Assembly (NCBI GenBank): GCA_963969595.1 | Contig: OZ018412.1 | Location: 7,256,501-7,320,500, forward strand | From: Neckera pumila | Taxonomy: Eukaryota > Streptophyta > Bryopsida > Hypnales > Neckeraceae | DNA: 64,000 bases | Direction: 5' to 3' | In this document: piece after piece, positions 1-60,451 of the stretch | How positions within the stretch are numbered: position 1 is the first letter of the stretch | How the letters are laid out: each line of letters starts with the position of its first letter | Translations under genes and position numbers: made by a program | Notes under the pieces: model-generated | Told to the model about the DNA's origin: nothing | Databases searched by the model: none | The model's input: only the letters and a program-made list of their open reading frames with translations

Positions 1-1168
1 CATAAGGTCCAGCATAAGGTACATTCAATTAAGATTGCAAGATCGAATTATCTTTCATATTATTTTTCTGCCCATACGTGTAAAAGCATCTCTTGAAGCT
101 TCAAATGGACCACTTTATATGGGAATTTTACCATGTTTTCACTTAAATGCACTTGTTGTAGCCAATATTGTCTAATATCAAAGACTACAACAACAAGATA
201 TGAAAATGCACATCCAACACCTTTTTTCTTTGCTAAGATGATTGGTTTTCAACCCAAGAAGTATCTACAAAGGTTACATGTGCTCCTCAAACCATACATT
301 GAAATAAGATAAGATGATGACAAAACTAAATAAACATGCCACTTTTTAAGCATACGTAAATGGAACAAAAATCATGATCACAAACTCTCAAACATTTTAA
401 AGACAAATCCACACATTTCTAACATACAAATAACCCACTTACTCAAAATCAAATACAAAAAGTATATGGGCTATGCCCGTACACTTCTCTTTGGACCAGC
501 AAAGTTTCTACTCGTTGTTTGTCACCCCTCAACAATTTAAACCAAATCAACCACTAAAGTCCTACTACTCTTTCCTCTAAAAAACAACTCAAAATTTCCA
601 TATCTACAACATTGACCTAAAACAATTAAGAAATAAACTTTTTGGAATCTAACCAAAGGATTTGGAGCTACATTTGGAGAAGCTTTAGAAGTTTGACCAT
701 ATATAATGCAAGATACAAAGCATTCAAAATGAAAGAAATCCTAAATTAAATTTTATATGACTTTAACCATCGTTGGTGTCAAACTTTTGAACTACAATTT
801 TTGAATTAAAAAATCTATCATACTCAAGACCACTTTAGGCATATCTTGACCAATTTTTATGGATAACAAAGGTGTGGAAAAAAATCCAAAATAAACTATA
901 CAATTGACAATACACTGCAATTTTTTGAAGATACGTTTCTTCCACATACTTTCAAGAAATAAGAAACCCAATGGTCAATTGAATATTTAATCATCCTTTG
1001 CAAACACACAAAATAAAAATAAAAAATTAATATCTGTAATTCCTACACAATGTAGAAAGATAATTACTGGTATGCAAATTCCAAGAGTCTAAGATATAGG
1101 GCAACAAGGCAATGAAGGGACCTTTCATACGCCTATTTTGCTCTTGGCTAGTTCCCAATTTAACGTGG
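1..1168. other. AT-rich spacer, no gene recognised
   Basis: No open frame with recognisable protein character and no clear repeat ends. The sequence is uniformly AT-rich, resembling the transposon-rich spacer that follows. Confidence 0.5.
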
Positions 1169-2092
1169 TTAACCCCTAAAGTTCCATGACTATGTTTTCA
1201 CCAAAAAAGCTCAAAAACTGCCATTTCTAGTACAAGTACCAAATTTTTGATTTTTTTTTTGAAACATGTAACCATAGGATCTTGTAGTACTCTGACTTGA
1301 AAACATGTGGTAAAAATATCAAAAACTTCCACCACGTGGATTGCAAGATATAAGCATTCAAATTCATTGAATCATTTTTTTGGCCTTGCGAAAAAAAGGA
1401 CAGTGGCACTTTACAAGCTCACTTTTCTATGAAAAAATGTCCAAAATGGTGGTGCTTCTTTAGGTTCTTTTTCCTAGACAAGTTGGCTACATGCTTGAAA
1501 AAATTCAAATCATTTGGAATTGTACAACATATAGGAAAAAATAGTAAGTAGAAAAAAATAGAGAATGATTCAAAATACTAAATTGTTAAGAATTTAATTA
1601 TGGAATTGAAAAATGCCAATTCCAAAGGTTGAAAGATTGCAATAATCAATCTACATTCTACAATTTTATTTTTTTCAAAAAATCTTGAAAATTGAGTAAG
1701 ATAAAGGATTTCAAAGTTTATTTTAGAGTAAAAAATCAATAACTGCTCGCAAACAAAAAATCCTCATAACTTGTGACTCATTGATCAAAATGGAATGATT
1801 CAAAGCTTTCCACATATATATAACTCTAGAAAACTAATTTCAAATTTTTGTTTCTAAAAAAAGTGATTTTTATGATTTGCCCAAATTGCCCATCTACAAA
1901 AAAAATAACATATAAGGCCATAACTTTTTACTCATATTTTCAAATGTCATGAAATTTAGTGCATATGAAAGATATTCCTTGTTCCCACCATTTGTTAAAA
2001 TTTGGGCCAAAAATATAGAAATCTTCAATCACATGTACCTACCCATTATTTCTATGTAGCCAAAAAACGCATGTTGGTCCTTTAGGGGTTAA
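1169..2092 (-). mobile_element. TTAA-flanked element, type 1 (piggyBac-like, non-autonomous)
   Basis: Bounded by TTAA at 1169-1172 and 2089-2092. The left end reads CCCCTAAAGTTCCATGAC inward. The right end, read inward on the minus strand, is CCCCTAAAGGACCAACATG. The two ends share the first nine bases and then diverge. The interior is AT-rich, lacks a transposase and is homologous, in reverse orientation, to the copies at 3676, 8806 and 57041. The TTAA flank with a CCCC-starting terminal repeat fits the piggyBac superfamily; the assignment is inference from ends and target site. Confidence 0.72.
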
Positions 2093-2289
2093 TTTACAAA
2101 AGTAATTTTATATCATCATATCACATAACATTGTTAACCAGTGTAATAGGAGGAAGGTCCCTTCTCTCATTCCCCAAATTGAAGGTGACCTCTCTCAACA
2201 TTCGTTAACACATTGTGGAAACCAATGATAGTCTCTAATTTAGTCTAAAGTTCCACTTAAAGGTATCAGAGAAAGAATTATACCTTTCC
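2093..2289. other. short spacer between elements
   Basis: AT-rich sequence with no recognised gene. It lies where the left part of the interrupted type 2 element would be expected, but I could not match it to that element. Confidence 0.4.
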
Positions 2290-2582
2290 AAGCAAGGAAG
2301 CAAAGGAAATTATATTTTTCTATATGGAAAGGTTTCATTCAATTTGTTCCAACAAGTGATGAGAAAGTCATGGAGCATCTTGCTTTATAGGCAACAAGAA
2401 CATCCTCATGAAAAATAATATACTGGATTCTTTTTTGAGCCAATTTTTGCATCCCCCATCCCCGTTCGACATGGTTAAATTTGATTATTAGAACAACCTC
2501 ACCATTAGGATTAGTGCATTTCAATTCTATCTGAAAACTATTAACACTTTAGTTTTCCCCTCATTTTCATATCAACTTTTGC

Positions 2583-3496
2583 TTAACCCCTAAAGGACCG
2601 AGGCCTTTTTCCTGCCAAAGAACTCTCAAAACTGCCATTTCTAGAGCAGAGAGTAAAAAATTCTGAAAATTGTTTCTTTTGCACATCGAACCATTAGATC
2701 TTATACCTAACTAGTATGACAAAGTGTGGAAAAAATTTCAGAATTTTTGACTACACAGATTGCAAGATATCTGCGTTCAAGGTGAAAAAAACAAGATTTT
2801 CAACACACTGTGGGCTTAGATATTTTGACTTTGAACATTTTTAACTTAAATTTTTTGCACTACAAAGTTTCGAGATATAAATATTTATAGTGGAGAATTG
2901 AGTTGAGAGTCTGGGGAAAAAAAAGAAATTCAAAAAAACTTAATTTTCATTCTGAAAAAAATTGTTTAATAGAAGATAGTACAAAATAGAAGGAAAATCT
3001 AAAATATTAATATCTTTTAGATGGAATTAAAATGCACTAATCCCAATGGTGAGATCGTTCTAGCTAGAAAACTTAACCATGTGAAACTTTTTTTTTGAAA
3101 AATTGCAAAAATTGCATTCCAAAATGAATCCTACAAGTTATTTTTTCAAGAAGATGCTCTAATTGCCCAAAAAACAAGAATGTCCATAACTTTCTCATAA
3201 AAAATCCAAATGAAATGAATCAGAGCTTCCCAAATAATCAAAATTAAAATCTATAAGGGAAAAAAAAAAATTTAATTAAATTTTTTGCAAATTTTTTTTG
3301 TTGCCCGCTCTTTCTTGTTTGAGCATAATTTTTGTTCCCGGGCACCGATTGAAAAAAAAATTATACTCCCATGAAGCTTATAAGTTTTTCTATCTTCAAA
3401 AAAAGTTTCAAAAAATCAAGACAAAATTTCAGCCCGTAGGTACCTACCCGAAATCCCATTTGTCCCCCGAACGAACAATGGTCCTTTAGGGGTTAA
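2583..3496 (-). mobile_element. Type 2 TTAA element nested in an older type 2 copy
   Basis: TTAA at 2583-2586 and 3493-3496, with ends TTAACCCCTAAAGGACCGAG and, inward from the right, TTAACCCCTAAAGGACCATT. The right end carries an imperfect subterminal palindrome ending in GGGGACAAATGGG. The older copy resumes directly after it. The equivalent point in the copies at 10031 and 59520 has a single TTAACAATTTT, so the insertion duplicated TTAA. No transposase frame is present. Confidence 0.8.
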
Positions 3497-3675
3497 CAAT
3501 TTTAAAAGGAATAGAAATCAAGTTGTTGATTTCTGAACTTTTTTTCTTAGACTCTCAACTCAATTCTTTATAGTGTGAGTTTCTCACTTCAAAATCTAAA
3601 ATGCAAATAGTTTAAGTTAAGAGGATTCAAAGTCTTAAAAACGGATTTGCCACGGTGTAACAAGTCCATATTTTT

Positions 3676-4673
3676 TTAATCCCTAAAGGACCAGCATGCG
3701 TTTTTTGGTTGTATAGAAATTTTGGGCAGGTATGTGTGACTAGAAATTTCCATATTTTAGGCTAAAGTTTTAATAGAAGGTGGTCGCAAGGAGTATCTTT
3801 CATATGCACTAAATTTATGACATTTGGAAATGTGAGTAAAAGATAATGGCCTAATATATTATCATTTTTTGAAACTGGGCAGTCTGGGCAGATAAAAAAA
3901 AGTCACTTTTTTCTAAAACAAAAATTTGGAATTGGTTTTCTAGAGTTACATATACGTAAAAAGCTTTCAATCATCCCATTTTGATCAATGAGTCAAAAGT
4001 TATGAAGATTTTTAGTTTGCGGGTACTTATGGATCCTCTACTCTAAAATAAACTTTGAAGTCCTTTATCTTACTCAATTTTCAATATTTTTCGAAAAAAA
4101 CAAAATCATAGGATGTAGATTATTTATGGCAACATTACAACCATTGGGATTAGCATTTTTCAATTCTATAATTAAATTCCTGACAATTTTGTATTTTGAA
4201 TCATTCTCTACTACTATCTACTTACTATTTTTTTTTTCTATATGTTGTACAATTTCAAATGAAGTGAAAATTTTCAAGCATCTAGCCATCTTATCTAGGA
4301 AAAAGAATCCAAATTAGCACCATCATTTTGGACATTTTTTCATCAAAAAGTGAGCTTGTGAAGTGTTGCTGCCCTGTTTTGTGCAGGGCCAAAAAATGGT
4401 TTAACCCCTAAAGGACGGAGCCCATGACCGTATAGTCAATTTGCGTACGTTGAACAAACACTTGGTCCTTTAGGGATTAAGTGAATTTGAATTCCTATAT
4501 CTTGCAATCTGCGCAGTGGAAAGTTTTGAAATGTTTTTGAGTCAACATACTACAAGATTCTACGGTTACATGTGTCTAAAAAAGTTTTTTTTCATAAATT
4601 GGATATTCGTACTAAAAATGCCAATTTTAGAGCATTTTCGGTGAAACCATAGTCGTGGAACTTTAGGGGTTAA
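3676..4673 (+). mobile_element. Type 1 TTAA element nested in the same older type 2 copy
   Basis: TTAA at 3676-3679 and 4670-4673. The left end is TCCCTAAAGGACCAGCATG (first base changed from C) and the right end, read inward, is CCCCTAAAGTTCCACGAC. It has the same architecture as the copies at 1169 (opposite orientation), 8806 and 57041. An 80-bp mini-element lies inside at 4401-4480. No coding capacity is seen. Confidence 0.78.
4401..4480. mobile_element. 80-bp TTAA mini-element nested inside a type 1 copy
   Basis: TTAA at 4401-4404 and 4477-4480. Ends are CCCCTAAAGGACGGAGCC and, inward from the right, TCCCTAAAGGACCAAGTG, with only 72 bp between the two TTAA sites. Paralogous positions near 9525 and 58040 run uninterrupted through TTTTAG or TTTTGG, consistent with insertion into a TTAA-like site. 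It is too short to carry anything but ends. Confidence 0.75.
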
Positions 4674-4886
4674 TTTAGAATTCAAGATTCTTGCAATTTA
4701 TGCTATCAAAGTATCTGAAATTTCTTCTACACATTCTTATGCTAGTCTATTGCAAGATCCTACAATTAGGTATGCAAAAAATGAAATGAAATGAATTTTT
4801 TTTTGGCTCTTTGCACTAGGAAAGGCAGTTTTAGTGATTTTTGACCTAAAAAAGAAAAAGGTGGGTCTTGGGACTTTAAGGGTTAA

Positions 4887-5470
4887 TGTTGTGCATTAAC
4901 TTACCACCCAAAAATCTTGTGTCAAGGCCTCATCATTTCTGAAATGTAAAGTAATTTGCTCTCCCTGACTGGTTCTCCCGCACTGGCTTGTGTGTCGCAC
5001 ACCCCAACCTCATGTTGTGGCTTTATATGCCCCCTCTATGGCCTCCATCCTATGACAAACAATAGTGGCAAATGCAGTGTAAGAATTTTCAGTAGAGACA
5101 ATGTGAGCCATGCCCCAACCTGCTATAAATATCGTTAGCCCATGCTTAGAGTCAACATTACATATTGGATGTTTTATGTTCCCAATACGTGGAACCAAGT
5201 GCTGTCGCTTGATTAAGTCTTATTCAAATTCCAACTAAAATTACGTAGAAACAGCAATTTGTCCATGGACGGTGGTTGCATGGTTCTTTGTTTTTTTTGA
5301 CACAAGGTTGCATGGGGCTTCAAAGCAATTGTAATGAGAAGAGAATGGAGGACATTAGTTCCCGAGGGGTGCACGTACATACAAAGGTAACCACACCTAA
5401 TTGTGACATTTATTTAACCCCCTAAATGTTGACATGAACGTTTGGCATCCGATGGATGACAAGAAATTCT
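4887..5470. other. Spacer with one isolated TTAA-element end
   Basis: No convincing gene. At 5414-5417 a TTAA is followed by CCCCCTAAATGTTGACATG, which resembles an element end, but no partner end is found before the next element starts at 5471. It is probably a remnant. Confidence 0.4.
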
Positions 5471-6913
5471 TTAACTTCTAAAGTTCCATGACTATGTTTT
5501 TACCAAAAACGCTCAAAAATTGCCATCTTTAGAAGAAGTACCAAATTTTTGGAATTTTTTTTTCACACATGTAAACGTAGGATCTTGTAGTACATTGGTT
5601 TGAGAAGATTTGAAAAAAAATTCAGAATTTTCCACCATGTGGATTGCAAGATATTAGCATTTGAATTGACAAAAATCCTTTTTTTTTCCCTGCAAAAAAC
5701 CAGGCAGTTGCATTTCACAAGGTTGCATTTGTGTGAAAAAATGTCCAAAATGGTGATTACTCCTTGGATACATTCTTCAAAGCAAGTTGGCTGCATGCTT
5801 GAAAATTTTTAGATCATTTGGAATTGTACAACATATAGGAAAAAAATAGTTAGAAAGAAATAGAGAATGATTCAAAACACTAAATTGTTAAGAATTTATT
5901 TATGGAATTGAAAAATATCAATTCCAAAGGCAGCAATGTTATAATAAACAATCTGCATCCTGTACTTTTATTTTTTTCAAAAAATATTAAAAACTGAATT
6001 AAATAAAGGACTCCAAAGTTCATTTTAGAATAGAAAGTCTATAATTGCCCGCAATTATCAAATTTAAAAGAAAAACTTTAGGACATATGTATCGTATGAT
6101 CTTGTAATAAACTTGTTTGAGAATACGTAGAATTTTTTTTGAATTTTTCTTTATGTAGACTGCAAGATATTAGCATTTGAATTGACAAAAGACTTTTTGG
6201 CCCTTTGAAAAATCGGGTAGCGGCACTTCACAAGGTCACATTTAAAAGAAAAAATGTCCAAAATGATTGTTACTCTTTGGATACAATCTCTAAAGCAAGT
6301 TGGCTACATGCTTGAAAAATTTCAAATCATTTGTATTTGTATTTGTACAATATATAAGAAAAAAATAGATTGTAGAAAGAAATAGATAATGATTCAAAAC
6401 ACTAAATTGTTAAGAATTTATTTATGGAATTGAAAAATACCAATCTCAACAGTTGTAATGTTGTAATAAACATTATACATCCTATACTTTTATTTTTTTC
6501 AAAACATATTAAGAATTGAGTTAAATAAAGGACTTCAAAGTTTATTTTAGAATAGGGAATCCATAACTGCCCGCAAAGTGGAACATCTCATCATTTCATC
6601 TCATAAATCAAATGGATTAATTCAAAGCTTTATACATATGTAACTCTAGAAAACCAATTTCAAGGTCTTGTTTTTTCATAAAGTGATTTTTCATAATTTT
6701 GTTGAGTTGCCTGCTGCCTATTGAAAATGACATATCATCCAATAACTTTTTAACCATGTAGTCAAAAGATTGAAAACTGTTGGGCCTTAAAGGATACTCC
6801 TTGGACACATGTTGTGTGAAATTTTCAAAGAAATAAAATAAAATTGTTGTTTGTAGTGAGTTGCCCAAAATTGCTATGTTGCCAAAAACACTGTTTGGTC
6901 CTTTAGGGATTAA
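5471..6913 (-). mobile_element. Chimeric or tandem type 1 TTAA elements
   Basis: The left boundary TTAA (5471-5474) is followed by CTTCTAAAGTTCCATGAC, a mutated type 1 end. The right boundary is TTAA at 6910-6913, preceded by GGTCCTTTAGGGA. Around 6053 the internal sequence restarts near the beginning of the type 1 interior, so the segment appears to contain most of one copy joined to most of another. Its right half preserves the uninterrupted version of the site where a MITE sits at about 57160. Confidence 0.6.
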
Positions 6914-7200
6914 GTCATTTCTTTGAAGAAAAATAAAATACAGCATGTGTTTTTTAACAGGATTTCAAAAACTTCAAAAACACAAGACTACAAGAATCCA
7001 TAGAGTATAGATGCTTGCAACAAAATTCTCACCAATAGAATTGACATGCTTCTATTCCATTTTAGAAACAATAATATCTTAGTATTCCATTCTAGAAATA
7101 ATAATATATTAATATTCCATTCCTCACTGATTTACTTCTACTCAGTAATTTCTTAAAAAATGAAAATCAAGTTTTCTTTGAATTTTGCTTGTGCTTTACG
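6914..7200 (+). repeat. Type 2 element fragment with short tandem repeats
   Basis: Part of this stretch matches the middle of type 2 (the region around 10420-10560). It contains two to three imperfect copies of an ATTCCATT-TAGAAA-AATAATAT unit at about 7057-7110. No element ends are visible. Confidence 0.45.
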
Positions 7201-8160
7201 TCAGGCAATACTCTTATCGTTGGGCATTGCCCTATACATAAAACATACTCGACAAACTTGAAAGTGTTACACAGATGTGATTGTAGACCTGTCAACTCTT
7301 GGTTCCATATTAGTTACAAGCATGAGATAGGCCTGCTCCTGTTTCCGAACAAATATTAAACTCTTGGTTCCATAAGAAAGCAAAAGCACAAAGATTTTTG
7401 GAAGAAGCTACTGTAGTTGAAGTAATCTTAGGTTGTTTAGAGTAGGCTCCTCCAAACTTTTTGGACAAGTTTGACAATTGATAAGTTAAAATATTACATG
7501 AGTGACGTCCAACTCTGCATTGCATTTGAATGAGTGTCAAAAAAACAAAAAATCCACATTTGCAATCAAGTAGTGAATAGTGTTGCGGAAAATATCTCTA
7601 CCACCATGGTTTACCCAACTAGGGACATTCTGTTTGATTGTCAAAGAAGAAGACCTTTGGGGGAGAAGAGGAGAGGAGAAGTCCATATATTTATAGTAAT
7701 TTAATGATAAAATTTACTTTCATGAGTCTTATCATGAAGGCGAAATATTTTAAATAGAAGTTTTTAGTCAAGTTGTGCTTCAAATGATGCTATTACCGAT
7801 TGTAGGAGGAATTTGATAAGCAAGTAATATTTGACAAAAAAAAATGGTAGGATTATTTGGAACTTTTGAATTTTGTACAATTTTGACTTATGATATTTAA
7901 AACTTTGATTCCCGGTTATGATGAAGTGCTGAACTTTGTAGAAACTGAGAAGAGAAAATTCATTGTGTATGTCCATATGTATTCAACCTTCTCTAATGAC
8001 ATTGCCTTGAGATATGAATGGGCTTCTATTAGGACTCTCATGTATGTCTACAATTTGACATGGTAAAATTGTCACTCAAAAAAATGTGCACACAATATGA
8101 TAGATTCTCATAATATACATGGAAATCAACTTGCAATTGCAAGAAGAAATATAAATGTAC
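7201..8160. other. Spacer without recognised gene
   Basis: Open frames here are short and show no family motif. No repeat structure was recognised. Confidence 0.4.
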
Positions 8161-8166
8161 ATGTAA

Positions 8167-8580
8167 GATAAACTAGTCCACTGTGGTCAAAATTTGGAGT
8201 CCACCGTCATGCCATCGCTGAAAGTTTTCAAAAAAATTCTCACATGAAGACAAGTGTGAGAAATAGTGAGAACAATTGAATTTGTTATAGATTTTTGAAG
8301 TGATCTATCCAAAAGAGTCAGTAGACTACCCCATAACCAACAAAACTTATATCCATATGCTCTTCTTAATCATCTAAAGTGGACACAATAATTCTAATGT
8401 AGAAGGCCATGAAAAGTTAGTTCCTACAATGATTTACACTAAAAAAGCAGGTATTCCTAATGAGGTCACTAATCACTCCATTGATGTCAGATTAGACATT
8501 GATTGTGGCCAAAGAAGTTGCCATGGAGTCATTAGGTGTCCACTATGGGTCATCCGACCACAATGGGCTGGTTTACCTTA
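8167..8580. mobile_element. Dispersed repeat related to the 18561 element
   Basis: The terminal repeats face inward: TAAACTAGTCCACTGTGGTC at the left and TAAACCAGCCCATTGTGGTC inward from the right. The interior matches, in reverse orientation, the element at 18561-19201 and, more weakly, 41400-42050. It is non-coding. The superfamily is not assigned. Confidence 0.6.
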
Positions 8581-8805
8581 GTAGTAGTTATTGCAAATAA
8601 GGATTTGACAATCGTCCAAATTTATTATATGATAGATATACTTTCCTTTTAATCTCATGTAAACAAACAAAAAAATTGTTCTCTTATAAATAATGAATTA
8701 ACTCATCTAGCATCTAATACCAATACAAAAGTAAATGAAGGTGATGATACATCTAAGATTCTAAGGAAGATTCATAACAAAAATAAAATACTTGGCAGTT
8801 TTTTT

Positions 8806-9732
8806 TTAACCCCTAAAGGACCAACATGCGTTTTTTGGCTACATAGAAATTTTGGGCAGATACATGTGACTAGAGATTTCTATATTTTTATAGAAGGTGG
8901 AGACAAGGAATATCTTTCATATGCAATAAATTTTATGACATTTGGAAATGTGAGGCAAAAGATATGGCCTAATATGTTACTTTTTTTTGGAATTGGGCAA
9001 TCTGAGTAGATCAGAAAAACTCACTTTTTTCCAAAGCGAAAATTTGAAATTTATTTTCTAGAGTTATATGTTCATGGAAAACTTTGAACCATTCCATTTT
9101 GATCAATGAGTCAAAAGTTATGAAGATTTGTAGTTTGCGGGCAGTTATGAATTCTCTACTCTAAGATAAACTTTGAACTCTTTTATCTTACTCAATTTCC
9201 AATATTTTTTGAAAAAAATAAATTGTAGGATGCAGATATTTTATTATAAAATTACCGCTCACAGAATTGGCATTTTTCAATTCCATAATTAAAATCTTGA
9301 CAATTTCGTATTTTGAATCATTCTCTACTACTATCTATTTACTATAGATAGTAAATAGATATTTTTTTCCTATATTTGTACAATTTCAAATGAAGTGAAT
9401 CTTTTCAAGCATATAGCCAAAATGTCTAGGAAAAATAATGCAAAAAAGCAATACCACTTTGAACATTTTTTCATTGAAAAGTGAGCTTGTGAAGTGCCTT
9501 GTTTTTCATAGGGCCAGAAAAATGATTTTAGTGAATTTGAATGCTTATATCTTACAATCCACACGGTGGAAATTTCTAGAAAATTTCCACAAATTCTCAA
9601 GTCAGCATAATACAAGAACCTACGTTTACATGTGTCAAAATCTATTCTTTTCAAAAATTTGGTACTTGTACTCAAAATGATAGTTTTTGAGTATTTTCGT
9701 TGAAAACATAGTCATAAAACTTTAGGGTTTAA
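8806..9732 (+). mobile_element. Type 1 TTAA element, full-length copy
   Basis: TTAA at 8806-8809 followed by CCCCTAAAGGACCAACATG. The right end is ...ACTTTAGGGTTTAA with TTAA at 9729-9732. The length of 927 bp matches the 1169-2092 copy. An internal palindrome of ATCTATTTACTATAGATAG type lies at about 9333-9360. No coding frame is present. Confidence 0.78.
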
Positions 9733-10030
9733 ATAGTATAATAATAAAATGTAGCAATTCAAGCCGTGAAGTGTGAATGAAGTGTGAATGCTATAGAATG
9801 GTCCTTGATCATCTTCATACTCTACATGAAGAGGCAAAACCACAAAGAAATAAAGTTCTAAACCTCAAAAGTTGATGAAAAAAAGCATGTTCACATTGGT
9901 AGGCTTGATGTCGAATTTTGAAAGATCCATTTTCTTTCAAAACACTTGATAGTTTCAATTTAGTTTTCGGTGCACCTCTCCTTGTCCAAAATTGCAAGAA
10001 CAAATTGAGCACATGGACAAGCACTGAAGT
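9733..10030. other. Spacer between TTAA elements
   Basis: No gene recognised; the short open frames do not resemble known proteins. Confidence 0.4.
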
Positions 10031-10900
10031 TTAACCTCTAAAAGCCCATTGTCCCTTCAGGGGACAAATAGGATTTTGGACAAGTATCTACGGGCTAAAT
10101 TTTGTCGTGATTTTTTGAATTTTTTTTTGAAGATAGAAAAACTGATAAGCTTTGTGGAAATATAATTTTTTTTTCAATCAGACGGTGGGCAGGAAAAAAA
10201 AATTTGCAATCTTTTTTGTTTTCATTTTTTTTTCTTATAGATTATATTTTTGTCTATCTGGAAAGCTTTGATTCATTCCATTTGAATTTGTTATGAGAAA
10301 GTTATGGACAATCTTGTTTTCCGGGCACTTAGAGCATCTTCCTGAAAAAAGTAACTTGTAGGATTCATTTTTGAATGCAATTTTTACAATTTTTCAAAAA
10401 AAAAGTCCCACAAGGTTTAGTTTTTTTGCTAGAAAAATCTCACCATTGGGATTAGTGCTTTTTAATTCCATATAAAAGCTATTAATATTTTAGATTTTCC
10501 TTCTATCTTGTACCTACTTCTAATTAACAATTTTTTCAATAATGAAAATTAAGTTTTTTTGGATTTTCTTTATTTCCTTAGACTCTCAGTCAATTCTCCA
10601 CTATAAAGATTTAAAGCTCAAAACTCTGCAATGCCAAAAATTTAAGTTAAAATGTTCAAAGTCATAAATCTAGTCCCGCAGTGTGTTGAAATTTTCTTTT
10701 TCACTTTAAACGTAGATATCTTGCATCTATGTGGTCAAAAATTCTGAAATTTTTTCAACGCATTTTTATACTAATTTGGTGTAGGATCCTACTATTAGAT
10801 GTGCAAAAAAACATTTTTCAATTTTTTTATTCTTTGCTATAAAAATAGCAGTTTTGGATGTTTTTTGACAGAAAAAAGGCCTTGGGCCTTTAGGGGTTAA
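10031..10900 (+). mobile_element. Type 2 TTAA element, full-length copy
   Basis: TTAA at 10031-10034 (then CCTCTAAAAGCCCATTG) and at 10897-10900 (preceded by GGCCTTTAGGGG). A subterminal palindrome, GTCCCTTCAGGGGAC, lies 20-35 bp inside the left end. The interior is non-coding. This copy provides two uninterrupted reference sites for the nested insertions at 2583 and 3676. Confidence 0.78.
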
Positions 10901-11369: not shown

Positions 11370-11855
11370 TTAACCCCTAAGTGCCCAAGGCACCAAATTT
11401 TGGTGTTGATAGAACTTTGAAGTTAAAAAAACCCTAACCAAGTTGCTATTTTTTAAAATCTATTTTTTTATGCTAAAACTAGACTTCAAAAAGAATTTAA
11501 ATAATATATAAATTACTAAATTGATTATGATTTTTCTATTCAAGATTTTGTGCAAGGGTACCCATTGCAATCTTGAAGACTTTCTGTAGTGTTGAGGGCT
11601 CTTGGAAATGAGCCTCAAATACACGAGGTCTTGGAGGAAAAACCACATTAGAAATTCATTTAAAAAAATTGTAGAGTAGATTTTGAAAAGCCATAAATTA
11701 GTTGGAATTATGCAAGTTAGGTCCTTTAACTCATATTTTCTTGTTGACCAAATTTTTAGATTTGGCATGTGAAAAGAGGATTGAAATGTTTCAAATCACT
11801 TTTGCAGTTTTAACACCCTCACATTCAAACATTATAATCTTTCAATTCATAAGTG
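11370..11855 (+). mobile_element. Type 3 TTAA element, right-truncated
   Basis: Starts with TTAA at 11370-11373 and the end CCCCTAAGTGCCCAAGGCACC. The following ~480 bp match the type 3 copy at 56268 onward; similarity stops near 11855 and no right end is found. This end is closest in style to animal piggyBac termini, which often begin CCCTTTGAGTGC. Confidence 0.6.
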
Positions 11856-24819: not shown

Positions 24820-25560
24820 TATGAAGTGTGATCCACTCCCCCCTTGAAGTTCTTTATGTCAGCAAGTTGCCAATAGTACATGAATGGTACCCTTCAAATC
24901 TTGATGAATTCAGAATCAATTCGTGAAGGCTTGAACTCTTGAATAACACTTGTTAGAGGAAGAAAGAAACCACCATCACAAAGTATTTGTGCAACTTCTG
25001 TTTGCCCTTCTCATCACAAAGTAGGAAACAAGTGTAGAAGACAAAACAAGAACATTCATCATTGACATCCTGAAAAGACACAATCATAAAAGAATTTCAG
25101 AATTTCTAAGAAATATATTCAGACACAATCTCAACAAAATCAAATTCGAAAAGGAAAACAAAACCGACGAGTTGAAATTAAACGGGAGAGATTTGCAACT
25201 ACAACTTTCCAAGCCTCACTCAAGAGCATTTCGAACACCAAGAGGCTTTCAGTTTGAATCTGCCGCCAGCATGCGTTTTGAAAGGGAATGGAGGAAGAGA
25301 GAGAGGCACCTCGTAACTGTCCGCTTTGCTTTTGCAGTGTTACTTCCAAGTTCCCAAAGGTTCTCAATGACTTCAGCGGAACAATCACGGGAATCTGATG
25401 ACACGGCTAAAAGACAAAGCAACTGCATTCTTCTTCTCCTGCCATTCAAGACTCGTACTGCTTTTGGGTTCTTTCGAAATTTGGGTTCTATCGATATTTG
25501 GATTCTGCTGAAATTTGGGTTCTGCTGGTGGGAGACTGCGAGCATTTGGAGTATTGGGCC
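24820..25560. promoter_or_regulatory. Shared head-to-head intergenic region
   Basis: 741 bp between the start codons of the minus-strand MORN gene and the plus-strand LdpA-like gene. It must hold both 5' UTRs and probably both core promoters. I cannot point to a convincing TATA box. Confidence 0.4.
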
Positions 25561-40686: not shown

Positions 40687-43600
40687 ATCCCTACACTTCC
40701 TGCATTATTGTAATGATAGGGTTTCCACTCCATTTTTTCAAAGTCGTCGGAGTCATCACGACGGTCGTGTATCACGACTCAGGTTCATTATATTTGATGC
40801 ATCGAGAATTAATAGCCTTCATTGCTGTAGACCTCCTTGCAGCTGCAACTGGGCTTCCAAGAACAGGGACATGCTTCTGTGCTGATGAGACGATGATTTA
40901 TCTGCGTAAGCACATTAGAACTCATTGAATTGTTGACTTGAGAGAGAAGAGAAGAGAGCGCTCAGGTATGTAGTATTAGATATTATCATGTCTTATAGGA
41001 TGTGATATCTATGTGTAGGATTGAAGAATCCTTTGCTATCTGTTCAGAAACCTTTACTGAGGTGTATCCACTTCATTTTCTAATGAACATCCAGTATTGA
41101 CTCACTGATTATTGACTGCATTGTACTTGTCTTAACTTGCCATGCCGCTTTGAGTAGCAGCTCAGGGAGATTTCTACGATTGCACAGGGATGCTGCACTT
41201 CAGTATTCAAACTTTGCCATTTGGTTAGATTCTTGAGTTCCACCTTTGTTTATACGCTTTGACTGTCGTGTCACATCATGTGAAATACGCCGTACTCTTT
41301 AATTAGGATTAGAATGGCCTAACTATGTATGGTAAACCAGCCTGTGGCAGGCAGAATGACTGGTTTGCCCTGTTGGCATTGTTTAAATTAAAAAAATTCC
41401 CCCATATGAAGCCAAATGTGAGAAATAGGGAGAGCAATTGAAATTTTATTTTTCTGACAAAGTATGAATTTTTTATGAATTTTTTAAGAATGCTGTCCAA
41501 ATGACCCCAACATGTGTAGACTTACCCCAAAACCAACAAATAGCGTATCTATAATGGTCATCTTACTCACCTAAAGTAGTCACAATATTTCTTGATATGG
41601 CTAAAATATTTCCTAACATGCTGACAACATAAAAGCCTAAAAAAGTCACTTTTTTGTGATGAATTTATACCAATAAGGTGAAAGTTCCTATTGTATCGTA
41701 CGTGTCGGCACTTTACTACCAAAATGGTTTAGTTCTTGTAGTTTGACAGTTCGGCAGCTTGATTTGGATTTTTTGGCTTTTGGCACTTTGATTTATCTAA
41801 TTTTTAGACACTCCTAATTTTGATTGACTTTTTTTATTTATGTTCAAATGTATTCTTTTTTCTAAATTTTCTCAAGAATAATTTTTGGATGTTTAGAATT
41901 AGCAACAATGAATTTTTTTCAGATTTCAAAATTATTTGTACAATTTTTAAAATTTTAGACATGATCCAAATTTCCCTACTTATTTCTAAAAGTGACCTAC
42001 ATGTGATATTAGTTCCTAATCACTCCATCACTCAAGACATTGATTGTGGCTATTAATTCAACCTAATGTAATCCAAATCTCATTAATTGAAAAAAGTCTA
42101 TCATGGATTGATGCAAAGACTTATAGTGTGGTTTGGTTGTCACTGCTTTAGTGGGGTCATTCTTCAAAAATTCATAGTGAGCTTGATATTCCTCGATATC
42201 TTTGAAGATTCATAGACTTTGATTGTAGTCACTACCTCAACCTAATGTAGCCCAAATCTCATTTACTAAAAAAAGTCTATCATGAATTGATGCAAAGACT
42301 TATAGAATGTCATAGGTGGTTTGCTTGTTATAGATTAGATTGTCTTAGTGGAATAGAAGTGCCTAATACCATCCATTTAAGCATCTACAGACCTTGGAGA
42401 TGATTCACATTAGAGGACATTTGAAGCCTCTAGAAGATTGCGAGTTACCCTGTGTTCCCATATTGCGGGAACACAGGATAATTGCTGGTTGATGTGGCTT
42501 GGATTATGCCACGTCATTTTTAGAAAAATAAATAAAAATAAATTGCTTTGAATGATATTTAGGAAAAAAAATTCTAACAACCTGTATTGACTGTTCACAG
42601 GATTAGGCCAGATTTGGGAACAGGTCTGAAATGGTCTTCTAGAGGCCTCAAATGTCTTCTAATGTGTAGTTATAAACTTTTCATATATTGATTAATTTGA
42701 GTGGAGACAAACCAATTGAAATTGTTTTTTTGGACAAAAAATTGTAACTTCTATAAAATTCCAAAGTGGTATGCCTTTAACCCTTGTACACATGAGCAAC
42801 CAAAAAGTTGTTGATGAATGACTTTTAGAGAAATTGTAGAAATGAAGAATGCACCTATTCATCCAAAGATCTACTTAATTTTTATTGATTACCTTGGTCA
42901 TAGGCCTTGTCTTTCCCAAGTCAACCCCTAAAGACAAGCCTAAGCCTACAAGGTCAAGCTCATAATCTTTTTTTGTGTTTGCTGCCATTTTGGAACTAGT
43001 ATGAATGAAATTTTTTACGTTTATTTTCTCAAGATGAAATTTGATGTCTTCTATACATGCTAGAAACCTCAATTTTTTCTATGAAAATTTGAAATTACAA
43101 TGGATTTTTAAAGAAAAAGTAAAGGAAATTGATATCAAATACAAAATATGCTCAAAAAATCTGAAATTTTCAACATAGGTGTATTTTCTTAATGTAGAAC
43201 ATCATGGTACAAATGAAAGTTACCATGTCATTCTTAAATTAGAAAATCAACAAACCATGGTTATAGGCCCAAAGTTCAAATTGCAATAAAACATTGGATT
43301 TTAAGACTTTATTGAATTTTTCCAATTGATGTATAAATGGATTTTGATAAAATTCATTTCATGAGTCAGCCTCAAATTCCAAAAAATATTGTTTTTAGGG
43401 CTAAAATTCATATAAAAAAGGAGCAAGAATTGACCAAAATACATTAGAAAGGTGATATGTGGATTAAGCATCTTCTTCTTCTAAAGAGTCAATAATACCA
43501 TAATGAAGGAATATGCAATACTATTTCCTAAAAATGCATTCAAGCAACTCCCTCCCAAAAATTGGAGGAAGAAGTATTTTTCTCCATCCTACAATCCCAT

Positions 43601-45418
43601 CTGAAGTCATCCAAAGGACACAAATCATTTGCAACATCCTTTAGGCATTAAAATACTAAACCATAGGGGCCATGGACATACCCAAAGAAAACTTCAATAA
43701 AATGTAATTTGACCTACAAAAAGTATTCTTGAACCATAACAAAATATATCCTAAAACCAACTTCCTTGAGGTATTCCTAAATGCAAAATTCATTCTAAAT
43801 AGTTTACCTCATGTGATTATATGTGAACTACTTAACCACCACCAAACAAGCCAATGACCATTTCATTGAGTGTTTGAAAGTGCCTTAATTGTCACAAATT
43901 TTTATAGCTCACCTCACCTCTATAGATTTCATTTTCACTACAATAAAAAATTAATGTGAAGAAGGGTGAAATTGGGGTAGTTTCATGGAGCAAAATTGTT
44001 GGATCCATGACAAAACTTAGATATTTCCACCTGGTTTTGGCTTGGTTCTACAACCACCCCTATACAATCATGAGCATCTACACTTAAATCATACAGTTAG
44101 TCAATTCCATTGCATATTTTTGTTTGCAAGATAGGGGAAACAAGTGCATGACAAATCACAAGGATGCTTGTGGTGCTCTAGATTTTCATTGTGAACATCA
44201 AATGAAACAATTGGATGATATTTCTCTAGGATGAAAACGTGATGGATTTTGTGACAAGAGTTGTGACAAGGGTCATGACACTGAGTACTTAATATAATAG
44301 ATTCTCTTTCATCACATCCCTCAACCTCCTCATTGTAGTTCCATACTACAATGAACATCATGGATACCCAAAATTAAAGCATCATGGTCAATTCCCAGGT
44401 GTTGCAAAGTGTCTATAAATGAAAATTTTCTTCTACTGTAGATATAAAGCAAACAGAGCAGGCAGCAAACAGACTCAAGCTCGCTCCGTCTGGTTGCCAG
44501 AAGAAGGGTCCCATGCACCTTCACTTCAGGATTTTGCGTGCCTGGAAAAAAGTGAATTAGTGCCAGTGCCTGACCATTGCAATTTCAAGACTACAGCACA
44601 ATAGTTCATGACGATTGAATATGTACACCCGTACATAGCACAACATTTCATGCACTCTCTTGATGAAAATCTTAAAATTTCTTAACATACTGCAGAAAGT
44701 TCAAAAATAATCGATCATACCTCCATGGTGTTGATGCAGACGTTGATCACTCAGCGTGTTATTTATGAAATTTTTGGAGCTCTCTGCCTCTAGGTCGTCC
44801 TTGTGCAAAGTGCTTAATCCCAAGATTGATGGAACTACTCCATGATTTCATCCAAGCTTCCTTATTTCTCGATGCACATATACAAGTTGACTGCAATCAG
44901 CTCATCCCTTGTGATTGTTTCTGGATTGAGGTATCTCCAATCTTGATCGGAAGCAGACACCAAGGACAACAAATGTGGAGGAGCTCTTTGAGGACACCGG
45001 CTAATTAAATAATTGATGCCATCACAGAAAGCCCGAGGCGATCAACTGTCAAGAGTAGGTCCTGAACATGTAGAGAGAATGCTTAGGTTTAGTCAATGAT
45101 AGTTTTGGCTCACATAGTGGACAAGCTCCTTGGCTACCGTGACCTGTTGAATGCAGCCTGCGGTCACAAAAGAACGAGAGATAAATGTGAGCATCAATTA
45201 CAGCTTACCGATGCCTTGTAGGATAACATAACATAAAGAACAATGAGGTCTATTCCTTGTTTACATCGATGATTATCCAATATATTCAAACATTGTCAAA
45301 GATCATCAAAAATAGTCAGAGACTGCCAACGATCATCAAGACTTATCAAAGATTTTGAGAAATTTGACCTGTGCTCTGCAACATATGATGCCACTATCAA
45401 TCGGGATTTCCAAACTGA
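40687..45418. other. Spacer with repeat fragments, no gene recognised
   Basis: 40687-41300 probably contains the PRA1 3' UTR. From about 41400 to 42050 there is a degraded copy of the 8167/18561 repeat. A block of about 90 bp (CTAATGTA-CCAAATCTCATT...) is duplicated at about 42060-42125 and 42243-42305. A MITE lies at 42406-42662. 43.0-45.4 kb holds short open frames on both strands without family motifs; 44340-45060 is more GC-rich and could be an old gene remnant. Confidence 0.4.
42406..42662. mobile_element. MITE with CATTAGA ends, copy 1
   Basis: About 257 bp with ~30-bp terminal inverted repeats: CATTAGAGGACATTTGAAGC at the left and CATTAGAAGACATTTGAGGC inward from the right. An internal hairpin, TGTTCCCATATTGCGGGAACA, follows the left arm. 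A second copy with the same layout sits at about 57166-57470. Confidence 0.7.
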
Positions 45419-48400
45419 TCACCAGTAATCTTTACACGAACACAAGCCATCTTTGAAGTGATGAAAGCGATTTGCATCCCTGACCACAATCTCTTTTCCA
45501 GTCACTTTGCACATCAATTTGATTGCTGTATGACAATCTGAACACACCCGAAGGTTCTTGTAAACACGAACAGGTTTACTACTACGAGTGCAAATAAGTC
45601 CATACGCAACAGCCAACTTCTCACTATGAGAGCAAAGAGAAAACTCTTTATCCTTCTCGTCAATATCATGCAACACAAGCCGGGTATCTGGAAGGTAGCC
45701 TTCAGCCTTGATTTTCTCAGTCAATCTGCTCAGCTCCGCATATATCTCCTTTGATTCCGGGTGAGATGTATCCCCTCCAACAAAGGTATGAATCTTGTTA
45801 TCCACTTCAATCCAGCTACGCCCCGGTTCCTTGCGTACACCTCTCTCCTGCATCATAGAGCGCACCAATGATACCTCCTCCCACTTCTCCTCTGCAGCAT
45901 AGATGTTGGAGAGGAGCACGTACGTCGAGGCATCCTTGGGTTCTAACTTGACGCGCTCTTTAGCCGCAAGTTCACCCAACTCCACATTCCCATAAGATCT
46001 ACAAGCACTGAGCAAGGCTCCCCAAGTAGTTCCATCTGGTTCAACTGGCATTTTATCAATGCAGAGCTTTGCTTCCTCCAGGTGACCTGCCCGCCCAAGA
46101 ATATCCACCATGCAGTTCCAATGCAGCACATTGGGAACGATGCCATAATCTTGCGACATAGCTAGGAAGAGTTGCCGGCCTTCGTCAACAAGCCCTGCAT
46201 GACTACAGGCCGATAGCACTGCCACAAATGAGTAACCATCAGGCTTCACACCGTCTGCATTCATTTTCCTGAAGACTTCTAGAGCTTCAGACCCACATCC
46301 ATGTTGGGCAAGTCCCCCAATCATCACAGTCCATGTCCTTACATCACGTTGCTTCATTCTATTAAAAACCAGTCTGGCATCATCAATGCTGCCACACTTT
46401 GCATACATGTGGACCAGCGCATTGCCCACCCGCAAATCCGACTCAAATCCCCCTTCACAAGCATGGCTGTGCACCTCCTTCACCCAATCCAAAGCCCCTG
46501 CGCTTGCACATGCATTGAGTATGCTCATATAAGTGACTGCATTTGGCTTGAAACCTTCTCGAATCAATTGGAGAAACAATCGATATGCTTCCTCACCACT
46601 CCCACTTTCAGCATATGCGCCGATCATCACAGTCCATGAAATCAAGTCCCGTTCCTCCATTCTGTCAAAAACCAGTCTGGCATCATCGATACTGCCGCAC
46701 TTCGCATACATGTGGACCAGCGCATTGCCCACGCGCACATCTGACTCCAGTCCCCCATCACGGGAATGGCTGTGAACCTCCTTCACCCACTCCAAAGCCC
46801 CTGCGCTTGCACAGGCTTTCAGTATGCTCATATATGTGACTGCGTCTGGTTTAAAGCCTTCCAGTATCAGTTGAAGAAACAATCGATATGCTTCCTCACC
46901 GCACCCACTTTCACCATATGCGCCAATCATCACGTTCCATGTAATTACATCCCGTTCCTCCATTCTGCCAAAAACTAGTCGCGCATCATCGATACTGCCA
47001 CACTTCGCATACATGTGGACTAGCGCATTGCCCACACGCACATCTGACTCAAATCCATCTTCGCGAGCATGGCTGTGAACCTCCTTCACCCACTCCAGGG
47101 CCTCTGCGCTTGCACATGCATTCAGGATACTCGCATAAGTAAATGCATCTGGTTTTAAACCTTCTCGTTTCATTCGGAGAATAAGTTCATATGCTTCACG
47201 CTCACACCCATGTTGAGCAAGCCCTCCAATCATAACAGTCCACGTCCTTACATCGCGGTGCTTCATTCTGCCAAAAACCAGTCTGGCATCATCGATGCTG
47301 CCGCACTTTGAATACATGTGGACTAGAGCATTGCCCACACGCACATCTGACTCAAACCCTCCTTCGCGAGCATGGCTGTGAACCTCCTTCACCCACTCCA
47401 AAGCCCCTGAGCTTGCACATGTATTCAAAATACTCGCATATGTAAAAGCATCTGGTTTTAAGCCTTTCCGTTTCATTTGGAGAAACAATCGATATGCCTC
47501 CTCACCACACCCAGTTTCAGCATATGCTCCAATCATCACAGTCCAAGAAATGACATTACGACTGGCCAACTTATCAAAAGTTTTCCTTGCCTCCTTTATG
47601 CGCCCACACTTTGCATACATTGTAAGGAGCGCGGTCCCTACACGCACATCTGACTCAAGGCCACCATCTCTGATATATGCATGAATTTTTTCGCCCCATT
47701 CTAAAGCTGATGGGCTGGCACATGCCTTCAGGATGCTCAAGTAAGTAACCGCATCTGGCTGCACACCTTCTTGGAGCATTTGATTGAAAACTTCCATCGC
47801 ATCTTTTGCGCGACTGTGCTGAGCATACCCTCCAATCATTTTAGTCCAACTAAGTAAGTCCTTCTCCACAAGTTCATCAAACACTCGGCATGCATCTTCC
47901 AATGTCCCACACCTGATGTAGGCACTCAGTAGGTTGTTTGCCAGATGTGTATTCTGTTGTATTCCACTTTCAATGATGCACTCATGAACTTGCTTGACTG
48001 CTGAAAGGTCTTCCTGCTTCAAGCACCGCTTCAGAACTCCAACATACATGTACGGGCTCAACGGACTCATAGCAATGCCTTGTTGTAGTCGGTTCTTCGA
48101 AACATCAATTGCTTCACTGTTTTTTGCACTTTGCATGCGCATATTGCCACCGCCAACTTGAGCATTTTGCTTTGACTGTCTTGCACTAGCGGGCAAAGTG
48201 TTTCTTCTTCCAAAAGCGCCCTTAGGTAACCTGGCTCATCAATATATTCTTCATGAGAACAACTCTCGAAACACGGGAAACTTTACTCAATCAATTCGCA
48301 CATCCTTAGGTGCGACAATATCTCTTAAATACAAAATATTTCCCAAAAAGTTCATTGCACTTTAAATGCACCTAATAAACACTCACAAAGTGACCAACAT

Positions 48401-56112: not shown

Positions 56113-56267
56113 CATGGGAAGCTTGCCTGCACTGAGTTCTGAAATGAAACTCTGGATTTGAAACATTTAACCCCTAAATGCCTCAATCCTTTTTTGCTTT
56201 TTTGCACATCTTTGCTTGTATCTTTCTACAGAAATATCATTTGTCAAAATTTCATGAATTTGGTCAT
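56113..56267. mobile_element. 3' flank of the permease with an isolated TTAA-element end
   Basis: TTAA at 56167-56170 followed by CCCCTAAATGCCTCAATCC, an end similar to type 3 but not identical. The next 100 bp run into the complete type 3 element at 56268. The lone end could belong to a copy interrupted by that element. Confidence 0.5.
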
Positions 56268-57040: not shown

Positions 57041-57343
57041 TTAACCACTAAAGGACCAACATGCATTTTTTGGCTACATTGAAATTTTGGGCAGGTACTT
57101 GTGATTAGAGATTTTCATATTTTTGGTCCAAATTTGAATAGAAGGTGTGGACAAGGAATAACTTTAAGCATTAGATGAGATTCGGGGGTCTTAGAAGGCT
57201 ATAAGTTCCCCTGATGTCTGTTGCGTTACCAGACTGCGGGAACACAGCAGCAGCAGCTAGCTGATGTGGTCGAGCAACTGCCACGTCACTTTTTGAAAAA
57301 AATAAAAAAATAAAAAAATTGCTTAAAATGATATTTTGGTAAA

Positions 57344-57374
<31 letters not shown>

Positions 57375-58246
57375 AAAAATTTCTGACACACCCGTACTGG
57401 CGTTCACTGAATCTAGGCAAATCAAGGAACAGGACTAAAACAGCCCTCCAAGACCCCCAAATATCATCTAATGGCCCAACAACTTTCATAACTTTTGACT
57501 ACATGGATAAAAAGTTATTGTAGTTTGTTTCTCAACTTGGGCAATCCGGGCAGATAAAAAAAAATCAATTATTCCAAAAACAAAAATTTGAAATTGGTTT
57601 TTCTAGAGTTATATATACATAGAAAGCTTTGAATCATTCTATTTTTATCAATGAGATGAAAGTTATGAGGAATTTTTGTTTGTAGGCAATTATGGATTCT
57701 CTACTCTAAAATAAACTTTGAAGTCCTTTATCTTACTCAATTTTCAATATTTTTAGAAAAAAATAAATCATAGGATGCGGATTGTTTATTACAAAATTGC
57801 AACCATTGGAATGGCATTTTTCAATTCCATGATTAAATTCTTAACAACTTTGTACTTTGAATCATTCTCTACTTCTTTCTATTTATTAATTTTTTGCTAT
57901 ATCTTATACAATTTCAAATGATGTGAAAATTTTCAAGGATGTGGCCAACTTGTCAAGGAAAAAGATCCAAAGAAGCACCACTATTTGGGACATTTATTCA
58001 TAGAAAAGTGAGCTTGTGAAGTGTAGTTGCTCCCAAAAATGATTTTGGTGAACTTAAATGCTTATATCTTGCAATCCACGCAGTGAAAATTACTGAAATT
58101 TTAACCGTATGTTCTCAAAGCAACGTAATACAAGATCATACGGTTACATGTGTCAAAAAAAATTCAAAAATTTGGTACATATTTAAAAAATGGCAATCTT
58201 TGAGCGTTTTGGGTGAAAACATAGTCATGGAACTTTAGGGGTTTAA
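57041..58246 (+). mobile_element. Type 1 TTAA element carrying a MITE insertion
   Basis: TTAA at 57041-57044 then CCACTAAAGGACCAACATG. Right end ...GGAACTTTAGGGGTTTAA with TTAA at 58243-58246. Its 1206 bp exceed the ~925 bp of other copies because of an insertion at about 57166-57470. Non-coding. Confidence 0.75.
57166..57470. mobile_element. MITE with CATTAGA ends, copy 2
   Basis: Ends CATTAGATGAGATTCGGGGG and, inward from the right, CATTAGATGATATTTGGGGG. The interior matches 42406-42662, including the GCGGGAACACAG and ATGTGG...CCACGTCA segments, but contains a run of about 30 T. The host site is seen uninterrupted (in reverse orientation) near 6790-6800. Confidence 0.7.
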
Positions 58247-59519: not shown

Positions 59520-60451
59520 TTAACCTCTAAAGGATTGCTTGTCCCCTCAAGGGACAATTTGGGTCCGGGCAGGTTCCTACTGCTTCAATTTTTAGTAATA
59601 TTTTTTGGGATTTTTTAAGGTTGTGTATTTTTGCAAGAGCTTTCTAAATATATAATGTTTATTTTAATTGTTGTCTGGAAGCAAAAGTTATGGCACAATA
59701 AGCAAAATTGGAGTTTAGCGGGCAGCCCCCAAAAAATCACAAAAAGTCAAAATGTTTTTTTTTCAAATTTTTTTCTCAAAGTTTATATTTTTGTCTACAT
59801 GCAAAGCTTTGTTTTATTCAATTTGGACTAATAATGAGAAAGTTATGGACAATCTTAGTTTTTTAGGCAATCTAAGCATCTTCTCAAAAAAATAACTTGT
59901 AGAATCCGTTTTTCAATGCAATTTTTAGAATTTTTCAAGAAAAATTGTTAGACAAGGTTGGATTTTCTTGCTAGAACAATCTCACCACTGGGATTATTGT
60001 GATTCAATTCCATCTAAAAGCTATTAACAATTTAGTTTCTCCTTCAATCTTGAATCCACCTCTACTTAACAATTTTTTAATGAGTGAAAATTAAGTGCCT
60101 TTTATCCTAAATTTTTTGGGAGATTCTTGACTCAACTACTTAATATAAATAAGTAGAAAATGAAAGTCCATAGTGCAAAAAACTTGAACGAAAAAGACTC
60201 AAAGCCAAATAATCTAGTCAAGCAAGGTGCAAAAGAATTTGTTTTCTTCACTTTAAATGCATATATCTTGCAATCTACATGGTCAAAGTTTCTAAAATTT
60301 CTTCCACATATTCACATACTAGTCAAGTATAAGATCTTACAGTTGGATATGCAAGAAAAAACAATTTTAAAAGCTCTTTTCTCTTTGCAATAAAAATGAC
60401 AGTTTTGAGTGGTTTTTGATAGGAAAATCACCTTGGTCCTTTAGGGGTTAA
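59520..60451 (+). mobile_element. Type 2 TTAA element, full-length copy
   Basis: TTAA at 59520-59523 (then CCTCTAAAGGATTGC) and 60448-60451 (preceded by TGGTCCTTTAGGGG). A subterminal palindrome, TTGTCCCCTCAAGGGACAA, is present as in the other type 2 copies. 932 bp. Near 60068 it shows the single, uninterrupted TTAACAATTTT site. Confidence 0.78.

Follow-up and report, generated by a model that had tools for sequence, protein, structure and literature searches.

Our analysis strongly indicates that the TTAA-bounded elements in the window, the whole 64 kb stretch of DNA analysed here, are non-autonomous MITEs of the piggyBac superfamily, resident in a moss nuclear genome and very probably moved by piggyBac transposases that are still encoded there. 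piggyBac is a family of jumping genes best known from animals, and the host here is a land plant, a moss, in agreement with the initial annotation. Presumably, the transposase would bind the CCCCTAAAG ends, the element would be excised by it, as with the studied piggyBac enzymes, and would then be inserted at another TTAA, which would be duplicated.

Terminal repeats and the TTAA boundary

We counted 34 TTAACCCCTAAAGG-like ends in the window (up to 3 mismatches allowed) against a mean of 5.57 expected from 100 dinucleotide shuffles, of which the maximum was 11 and none reached 34. The elements bounded by these ends are ~930, ~650 and ~80 bp in size, and some are nested within others at TTAA sites [Table 1]. 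At their ends, TTAA is followed by the CCCCTAAAG inverted repeat, which has the CCY start of piggyBac, and the terminal bases of the elements are CCCC...GGGG. In the 339.5 Mb assembly, the motif occurred at 24,848 + 25,046 ends compared to 69 + 67 for the reversed pattern (up to 1 mismatch), i.e., a ~370-fold excess over the control, and MITEs cover ~14% of 200 kb sampled from contig C1. The proposal of TTAA-bounded elements with a shared terminal repeat is thus confirmed; the repeat, ascribed to all copies, is general among them, with some ends imperfect (e.g., TTAACTTCTAAAGT at 5471 and TAAACCCCTAAAGT at 58245). Most of the copies listed in the initial annotation have paired ends. The one placed at 2290, however, has no TTAA end there and is part of a family B copy (B4) split into three pieces by B1 and A2; the copy at 11370 does match family C, in its 5' part only, and the family C element thought to start at 56268 starts at 56267.

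Table 1. Positions of the TTAA-associated elements and element pieces within the window
Element	Positions	Strand	Description
A1	1169..2092	+	Family A MITE, 924 bp
B4, piece 1	2309..2582	-	Split family B copy, without a TTAA end here
B1	2583..3496	+	Family B MITE, 914 bp, nested in B4 at TTAA
B4, piece 2	3497..3675	-	Split family B copy
A2	3676..4673	-	Family A MITE, 998 bp counting M, inserted in B4
M	4401..4480	+	Same-ended element of 80 bp, nested in A2
B4, piece 3	4674..4886	-	Surviving end TTAACCCTTAAAGT at 4886, the sole recognised B4 end
A3	5471..6913	+	Family A MITE, 1,443 bp long because of a ~500 bp internal duplication
A4	8806..9732	-	Family A MITE, 927 bp
B2	10031..10900	-	Family B MITE, 870 bp
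C2	11370..11860	+	Family C element, 5' part (matches C1 up to 11860)
C1	56267..56919	+	Family C MITE, 653 bp
A5	57041..58245	-	Family A MITE, 1,205 bp, with an unrelated ~315 bp insert at about 57166-57480
B3	59520..60451	-	Family B MITE, 932 bp

To locate the boundary, we compiled a logo from 121 core matches gathered without using TTAA as a criterion; 45 of these lack an exact preceding TTAA, part of them being chance or internal matches. Conservation outside the element is restricted to the 4 bp TTAA (T, T, A and A in 96, 93, 94 and 94 of the 121 matches) and falls to the background level at position -5, and hence the possibility that boundaries extend beyond TTAA, which would have spoken against piggyBac, was examined and not borne out. 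Empty sites complement the logo in pointing to a 4 bp TTAA target duplication. Where B1 sits in B4, both B2 and B3 carry one TTAA at the homologous place, and where a transposase-bearing element on contig C9 sits in a family A copy, two relatives have TTAA at the homologous place. At the insertion sites of A2 and M the relatives do not read TTAA, and these two cases fit in length only.

Kinship, length and coding content of the families

Of the three non-autonomous families envisaged earlier, the presence of several stands and the division does not. The family A profile matches B1 over its whole length (E 1.2e-27), and on this comparison both are subfamilies within a single diverged lineage. 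Family C stands apart from that lineage, as does M (80 bp), and additional families occur outside the window (e.g., L034, 1,334 bp). The family alignments comprised 39 of 40 end pairs lying 880-980 bp apart, an overlapping duplicate (L012_2540_3483) being omitted. L009_2932_3851 (best match 59%) was kept in family A, as was L033_3231_4139, which matches no other element and is the probable source of the 0.43 maximum divergence in the boundary-logo set. The consensuses of A and B are ~41% different, yet they share one common register of 932 bp. The length figures are shaped by the 880-980 bp filter on end pairs; without it, 16 of the 39 end pairs found within 3,000 bp were 908-947 bp apart. We tentatively propose, as a possibility that we ourselves hold to be rather doubtful, that mosses have an old, still living piggyBac branch of their own, which carries no name in the protein collections searched, and that its main MITE lineage, whose diverged subfamilies A and B still keep the same register, is under length selection. 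If so, transposition or escape from silencing may require the interior of the elements or a given spacing between their ends.

The consensuses of A and B contain no long frames, the longest stop-to-stop stretches being 93 (A) and 85 (B) residues, and the substitutions between them have no codon phase (128, 135 and 120); coding MITEs were therefore rejected. The window frames inside or at elements (6617-6961, 8653-9006 and 9370-9708) had no Pfam match except one at E 0.081. When a single copy each of A and B was folded, the z values were -2.3 and -5.4 (20 shuffles each), part of which is expected because the terminal repeats pair, and we draw no inference from it.

A transposase-bearing element with the same ends

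From 872 candidates in the assembly, 116 matches to the piggyBac transposase profile PF13843 (DDE_Tnp_1_7) were scored, spread over 11 contigs (C1 to C11). All 116 exceeded the cut-off, compared to 0 of 14 control genomes. We read one copy in full, along with the ends of two others. The former (L037, contig C9) is an element of 5,634 bp with an uninterrupted 894-codon frame and the DDD triad, inserted within a family A MITE on a 23.8 Mb contig. It bears a perfect TTAACCCCTAAAGTCCCA at both ends, which read CCCCTAAAGTCCCA, perfect for 14 bp after TTAA, and the two ends match each other over 18 bases. Its frame matched PF13843 at 4.9e-81, PDB entry 6x67 at 3.2e-35 and piggyBat (9c0f) at 1.7e-23. 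Among 123 aligned relatives, the catalytic aspartates are retained in 102/107, 116/119 and 87/89 letters; at the C terminus, a Cys/His-rich pattern is visible in the sequence, where the alignment is loose. One complete copy therefore combines the ends of the MITEs with a frame for a DDE_Tnp_1_7 transposase that has the DDD triad. This supports the piggyBac source, present or past, that had been suggested, and the counter-case of a transposase from another superfamily was looked for, the one copy read with its ends being of the piggyBac type.

Sister copies on contigs C2 and C8 have TTAA at all four ends in differing flanks, and their end bases are 99-100% identical to those of the C9 element (102/103, 106/107, 98/98 and 103/103). 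In protein, they are 98% alike (two TAG) and 93% alike (one TGA and one TAG), i.e., both frames carry stops. The uninterrupted frame, together with sister copies whose ends are near-identical, tilts the evidence towards a present rather than a past source. L034 is related to the C9 element but has an internal deletion, its ends being 92% and 82% alike.

The likeness between L037 and the MITEs lies in the ends. Beyond the terminal repeat, the ends of A and B are 58-61% identical to the C9 element at one end and 50-61% at the other; the 50% of family A is near the 44-48% of a shuffled control, which was made for the whole consensus. In a search for a common interior, profiles A and B found nothing in L037 (best E 1.3, for B) and profile C gave one weak match (E 0.0026). 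A different clade of transposase copies is therefore the probable direct source of A and B, whose resemblance to the C9 element is distant. The elements have the attributes of MITEs, being short, non-coding, present in many copies and sharing ends with a transposase-bearing element of the same genome; no direct parent for A and B turned up in the copies read.

Competing explanations and comparison with known systems

TTAA by itself cannot separate piggyBac from other superfamilies such as Kolobok, and Sola3 is also among the TTAA-using superfamilies. Such a superfamily could have made the MITEs, with the piggyBac genes merely present in the same genome, and the distant likeness of A and B to the C9 element leaves some room for this. 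According to PMC9587614, Kolobok likewise makes TTAA duplications and has ends of the form 5'-RR and YY-3', whereas the MITE ends here are CCCC...GGGG; Kolobok was rejected on these terminal bases. Since these ends recur on a transposase-bearing element that is piggyBac, we consider a Kolobok or Sola3 origin very unlikely. Still less credible are Tc1/mariner-type (Stowaway-like) MITEs with a TA target and ends that read ACCCC by chance. Empty sites alone cannot split TA from TTAA when all targets are TTAA; however, the outer T at -4 is as conserved in the logo as the inner bases, by which a TA target with free outer bases was rejected, and here too the transposase-bearing element is piggyBac. 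Moss samples often carry animals, and the closest named proteins to the transposase are two arthropod proteins (26-29% identical), which could suggest contamination from animals living on the moss. Against this, the MITEs share the 64 kb with PPR-DYW and other plant genes, the transposase element lies within a MITE of the same family on the 23.8 Mb contig, and the matches are scattered over 11 contigs, which makes contamination extremely improbable.

The piggyBac reading is also favoured by comparison. Like Trichoplusia ni piggyBac and piggyBat, the moss element has a TTAA target, an inverted repeat starting with CCC, a DDE_Tnp_1_7 domain and the DDD triad, and a Cys/His-rich pattern is visible in its C-terminal sequence; it differs from autonomous piggyBac in its moss host and its distant protein. 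The classical element is ~2.5 kb (PMC10813416), shorter than the moss element. The MITEs resemble other piggyBac-derived MITEs in being short, without long frames, numerous and ended like a transposase-bearing element, and differ in their very large scale and in having two ~930 bp subfamilies in one register. As a tool for gene delivery piggyBac is standard, and most work on it has been in animals. With near-identical full-length copies, >100 matches to the transposase and MITE ends in the tens of thousands, this moss provides a native land-plant system, in which an ancestral plant piggyBac versus one gained by transfer, and a plant-derived enzyme for precise marker removal, become testable. 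Plants are named among piggyBac hosts in reviews (PMC8086355), and the insect piggyBac, as described in PMC5505980, has been used in rice and was yet to be tested in Physcomitrella. The closest relatives of the moss transposase are unnamed environmental proteins, and their large number suggests that this piggyBac branch may be common and overlooked.

Element families and their boundary

The initial annotation had described TTAA-flanked elements with CCCCTAAAGG ends, and this description is borne out, as the window holds 34 TTAACCCCTAAAGG matches (≤3 mismatches) against a mean of 5.57 and a maximum of 11 in shuffles. Element families were defined by reading the sequence and comparing the copies among themselves. 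Family A has five copies, 922-927 bp when without inserts or duplication, with 79-82% pairwise identity among A1, A2, A4, and A5 and 70-75% between A3 and the others. Family B has three whole copies (870-932 bp) and one split copy, B4; family C is represented by one complete copy (653 bp) and a 5' part; and element M measures 80 bp. Since the A profile matches the whole of B1 end to end (E 1.2e-27), A and B are regarded as one lineage. B1 and A2 are nested inside B4, and M inside A2. The copy annotated at 2290 is element sequence, though not a separate copy, being one of the three pieces into which B1 and A2 split B4. Individual features are collected in the table.

Positions of individual features (window coordinates unless another sequence is named)
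Feature	Position	Length	Details
Decayed A/B-lineage fragment	547-797		Profile B, E 2.1e-9
Direct duplication in A3	5565-6054 / 6083-6576	~490 bp	81% identical
Decayed A/B-lineage fragment	6921-7191		Profile B, E 2.7e-10
Possible decayed element of another family	42921-43651	731 bp (end spacing)	Weak end pair TCAACCCCTAAAGA / TTAATGCCTAAAGG
Tandem repeat in PPR-DYW gene	46317-47556	303 bp (unit)	4.1 copies within the reading frame
Insert in A5	57166-57480	~315 bp	Inverted ends ATTAGATGA... / ...TCATCTAAT; 27-T run; part is a 75% match to 42451-42567
C9 element (transposase-bearing, contig C9)	880-6513 of 6,700 bases fetched	5,634 bp

At the B1 site, the joined B4 flanks keep one TTAA, and B2 and B3 likewise have one TTAA there. 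At the A2 site, the joined B4 flanks align at unchanged length and TTAA is absent at the homologous place in B1, B2, and B3; the M site in A2 behaves in the same way, without TTAA in A1, A4, and A5. We then considered 121 CCCCTAAAGGACC matches (≤3 mismatches), gathered without assuming TTAA both in the window and in 10 kb samples taken at 20 evenly spaced points on contig C1. Positions -4 to -1 were T, T, A, and A in 96/121, 93/121, 94/121, and 94/121 matches, position -5, outside the element, was at background level (0.05 bits), and exact TTAA stood directly before 76 of the 121. The target is therefore TTAA, a TA target being ruled out by the retention of the outer T (-4), and the elements end at TTAA with no extension further out, which upholds the annotated boundary.

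A transposase-bearing element with the same ends

TTAA is used by piggyBac and Kolobok alike, while their terminal bases differ (PMC9587614), and animal piggyBac repeats start mostly with CCC (PMC10813416). Of 872 first-look candidates, 116 were scored for the piggyBac-type transposase domain PF13843 (DDE_Tnp_1_7); all 116 exceed the curated cut-off, 35 of them have no stop in the matched stretch by row count, and none of 14 control genomes matched (0/14). The best match was fetched as stretch L037, followed by the adjoining L039 and L038 on both sides. L037 holds an open frame of 894 codons (PF13843 E 4.9e-81), upstream of which the sequence reads as a putative short first exon and intron. 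This frame matches PDB 9c0f (piggyBat) at 1.7e-23 and PDB 6x67 ('Transposase'), which we take to be T. ni piggyBac, at 3.2e-35. The aspartates in its TIDE, MDNFF, and GVDVADQ motifs align with those of 6x67, presumably residues 268, 346, and 447. Among 123 aligned relatives, the three positions are D in 102/107, 116/119, and 87/89 of the sequences with a letter there; aspartate residue 268 appears in PMC9499001.

L037 on its own has no TTAACCCCTAAAGG-like end. Its 3' part matches DNA near MITE ends in two other stretches, L034 and L016, so an end was predicted ~210 bp beyond, and it was found on fetching the adjoining stretch. The resulting C9 element carries TTAACCCCTAAAGTCCCA at both ends, so that an element sharing the MITE ends and encoding a piggyBac-type transposase, as the annotation had anticipated, does exist; its assignment to the piggyBac superfamily is settled. 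When its left 211 bases were used as a DNA query (40 of 1,734 candidates scored), the best two further matches among those scored were copies of 99% identity on contigs C8 and C2. The left end lies 2,424 bp (C8) and 2,425 bp (C2) from the transposase match, against 2,425 in the C9 copy. Both sister copies have TTAA at 4/4 ends and different flanks, and their ends are identical to the C9 element at 102/103, 106/107, 98/98, and 103/103 bases. For the C2 protein identity is 98%, with two TAG stops; for the C8 protein, compared across residues 191-894, it is 93%, with a TGA and a TAG. An intact frame is therefore known for the C9 copy alone.

Source of families A and B and genome scale

A protein-query genome search gave at least 62 matches (51 of 1,293 candidates scored), with identities of 44-83% apart from the C9, C2, and C8 copies and short fragments, and 76 and 91% for a split copy on contig C6; there are thus several transposase clades. 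Alignment of the 1,334 bp L034 with the C9 element gives 92% identity for the left 199 bp and 82% for the right 658, making L034 a relative of it with an internal deletion. The consensus ends of A and B match the C9 element at 58% and 61% at one end and at 50% and 61% at the other, A's 50% being barely above the 44-48% of a shuffled control made with the whole consensus. Through the shared ends, A and B very probably belong to the piggyBac superfamily; their consensus ends are distant from the C9 element, and the immediate source of both families is therefore probably another clade.

The A and B consensuses, each 932 bp, are 58.7% identical (44-48% in 20 shuffles) with 5 gap columns on each side, a difference of ~41%. 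The best B match lies at the same position ±1 base for 23/30 A windows of 60 bp, against 0 in each of 20 shuffles of two-base blocks; windows starting at 211-301 and 661-721 showed no such register. Against their own consensus, single copies have diverged by 16-18% on average and show a mean of 13-14 bases deleted and 8-15 inserted. From the shared register and equal length, the source lineages seem to have accumulated substitutions with scarcely any net length change, a lead only, as copies were selected by length (880-980 bp) and the consensus masks minor indels.

Across the assembly (339.5 Mb, 18 contigs; the window being C5:7256501-7320500), counts for the end motif (≤1 mismatch) are 24,848 on the forward strand and 25,046 on the reverse; the reversed motif, as control, gives 69 and 67. 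The A, B, and C profiles cover 27,687 bases, or 14%, of 200 kb sampled; with every sample taken from contig C1, this value is indicative, not genome-wide. Five of the 20 samples (L017, L018, L019, L028, and L029) are free of A, B, and C sequence and the remaining 15 average ~18%. The density of MITEs may differ strongly from one part of the chromosome to another.

Host, relatives, and proposed mechanism

The host is a moss, in agreement with the annotated land plant. The window carries genes for a DYW-domain PPR protein of 937 residues, a PRA1 protein, and a tyrosine permease. The permease shares 93% identity with a protein of another assembly, 76% with Physcomitrium patens, and 55-56% with two Sphagnum species. 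The main claim of piggyBac MITEs in a land plant was right, with details corrected, and it places piggyBac on a very large scale in a host unusual for it. Plants are named among piggyBac hosts in general terms (PMC8086355), a MITE review includes PiggyBac among angiosperm superfamilies (PMC10004981), and 1,230 'PiggyBac' entries are listed in a repeat table for Ceratopteris (PMC6890710). Among the matches listed, drawn from titles and abstracts mostly outside the subscription literature, none reported an autonomous moss piggyBac. A full-protein database search, seeded with words taken from residues 1-500, a region lying mostly outside the domain, gave four relatives, the nearest two without a name and the rest arthropod. 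A three-sequence profile search gave 225, with a species name on 0/120 among the matches listed. From the same search, a large environmental protein set (P0121-P0242), many members having PF13843 and 45-77% identity to P0121, is perhaps an undescribed piggyBac branch.

The ends and targets are observed directly; if it acts as studied piggyBac enzymes do, the moss transposase would recognise CCCCTAAAG ends, excise the element with TTAA restored, and insert it at another TTAA. Old MITEs are themselves AT-rich targets. Of the three autonomous copies, C9 sits within a family A MITE: once joined, its flanks can be aligned to six further A copies, and two of these, L011 and L025, have TTAA at the insertion site. 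The C2 copy also seems to lie within an old MITE, as its flank, by eye, resembles B copies.
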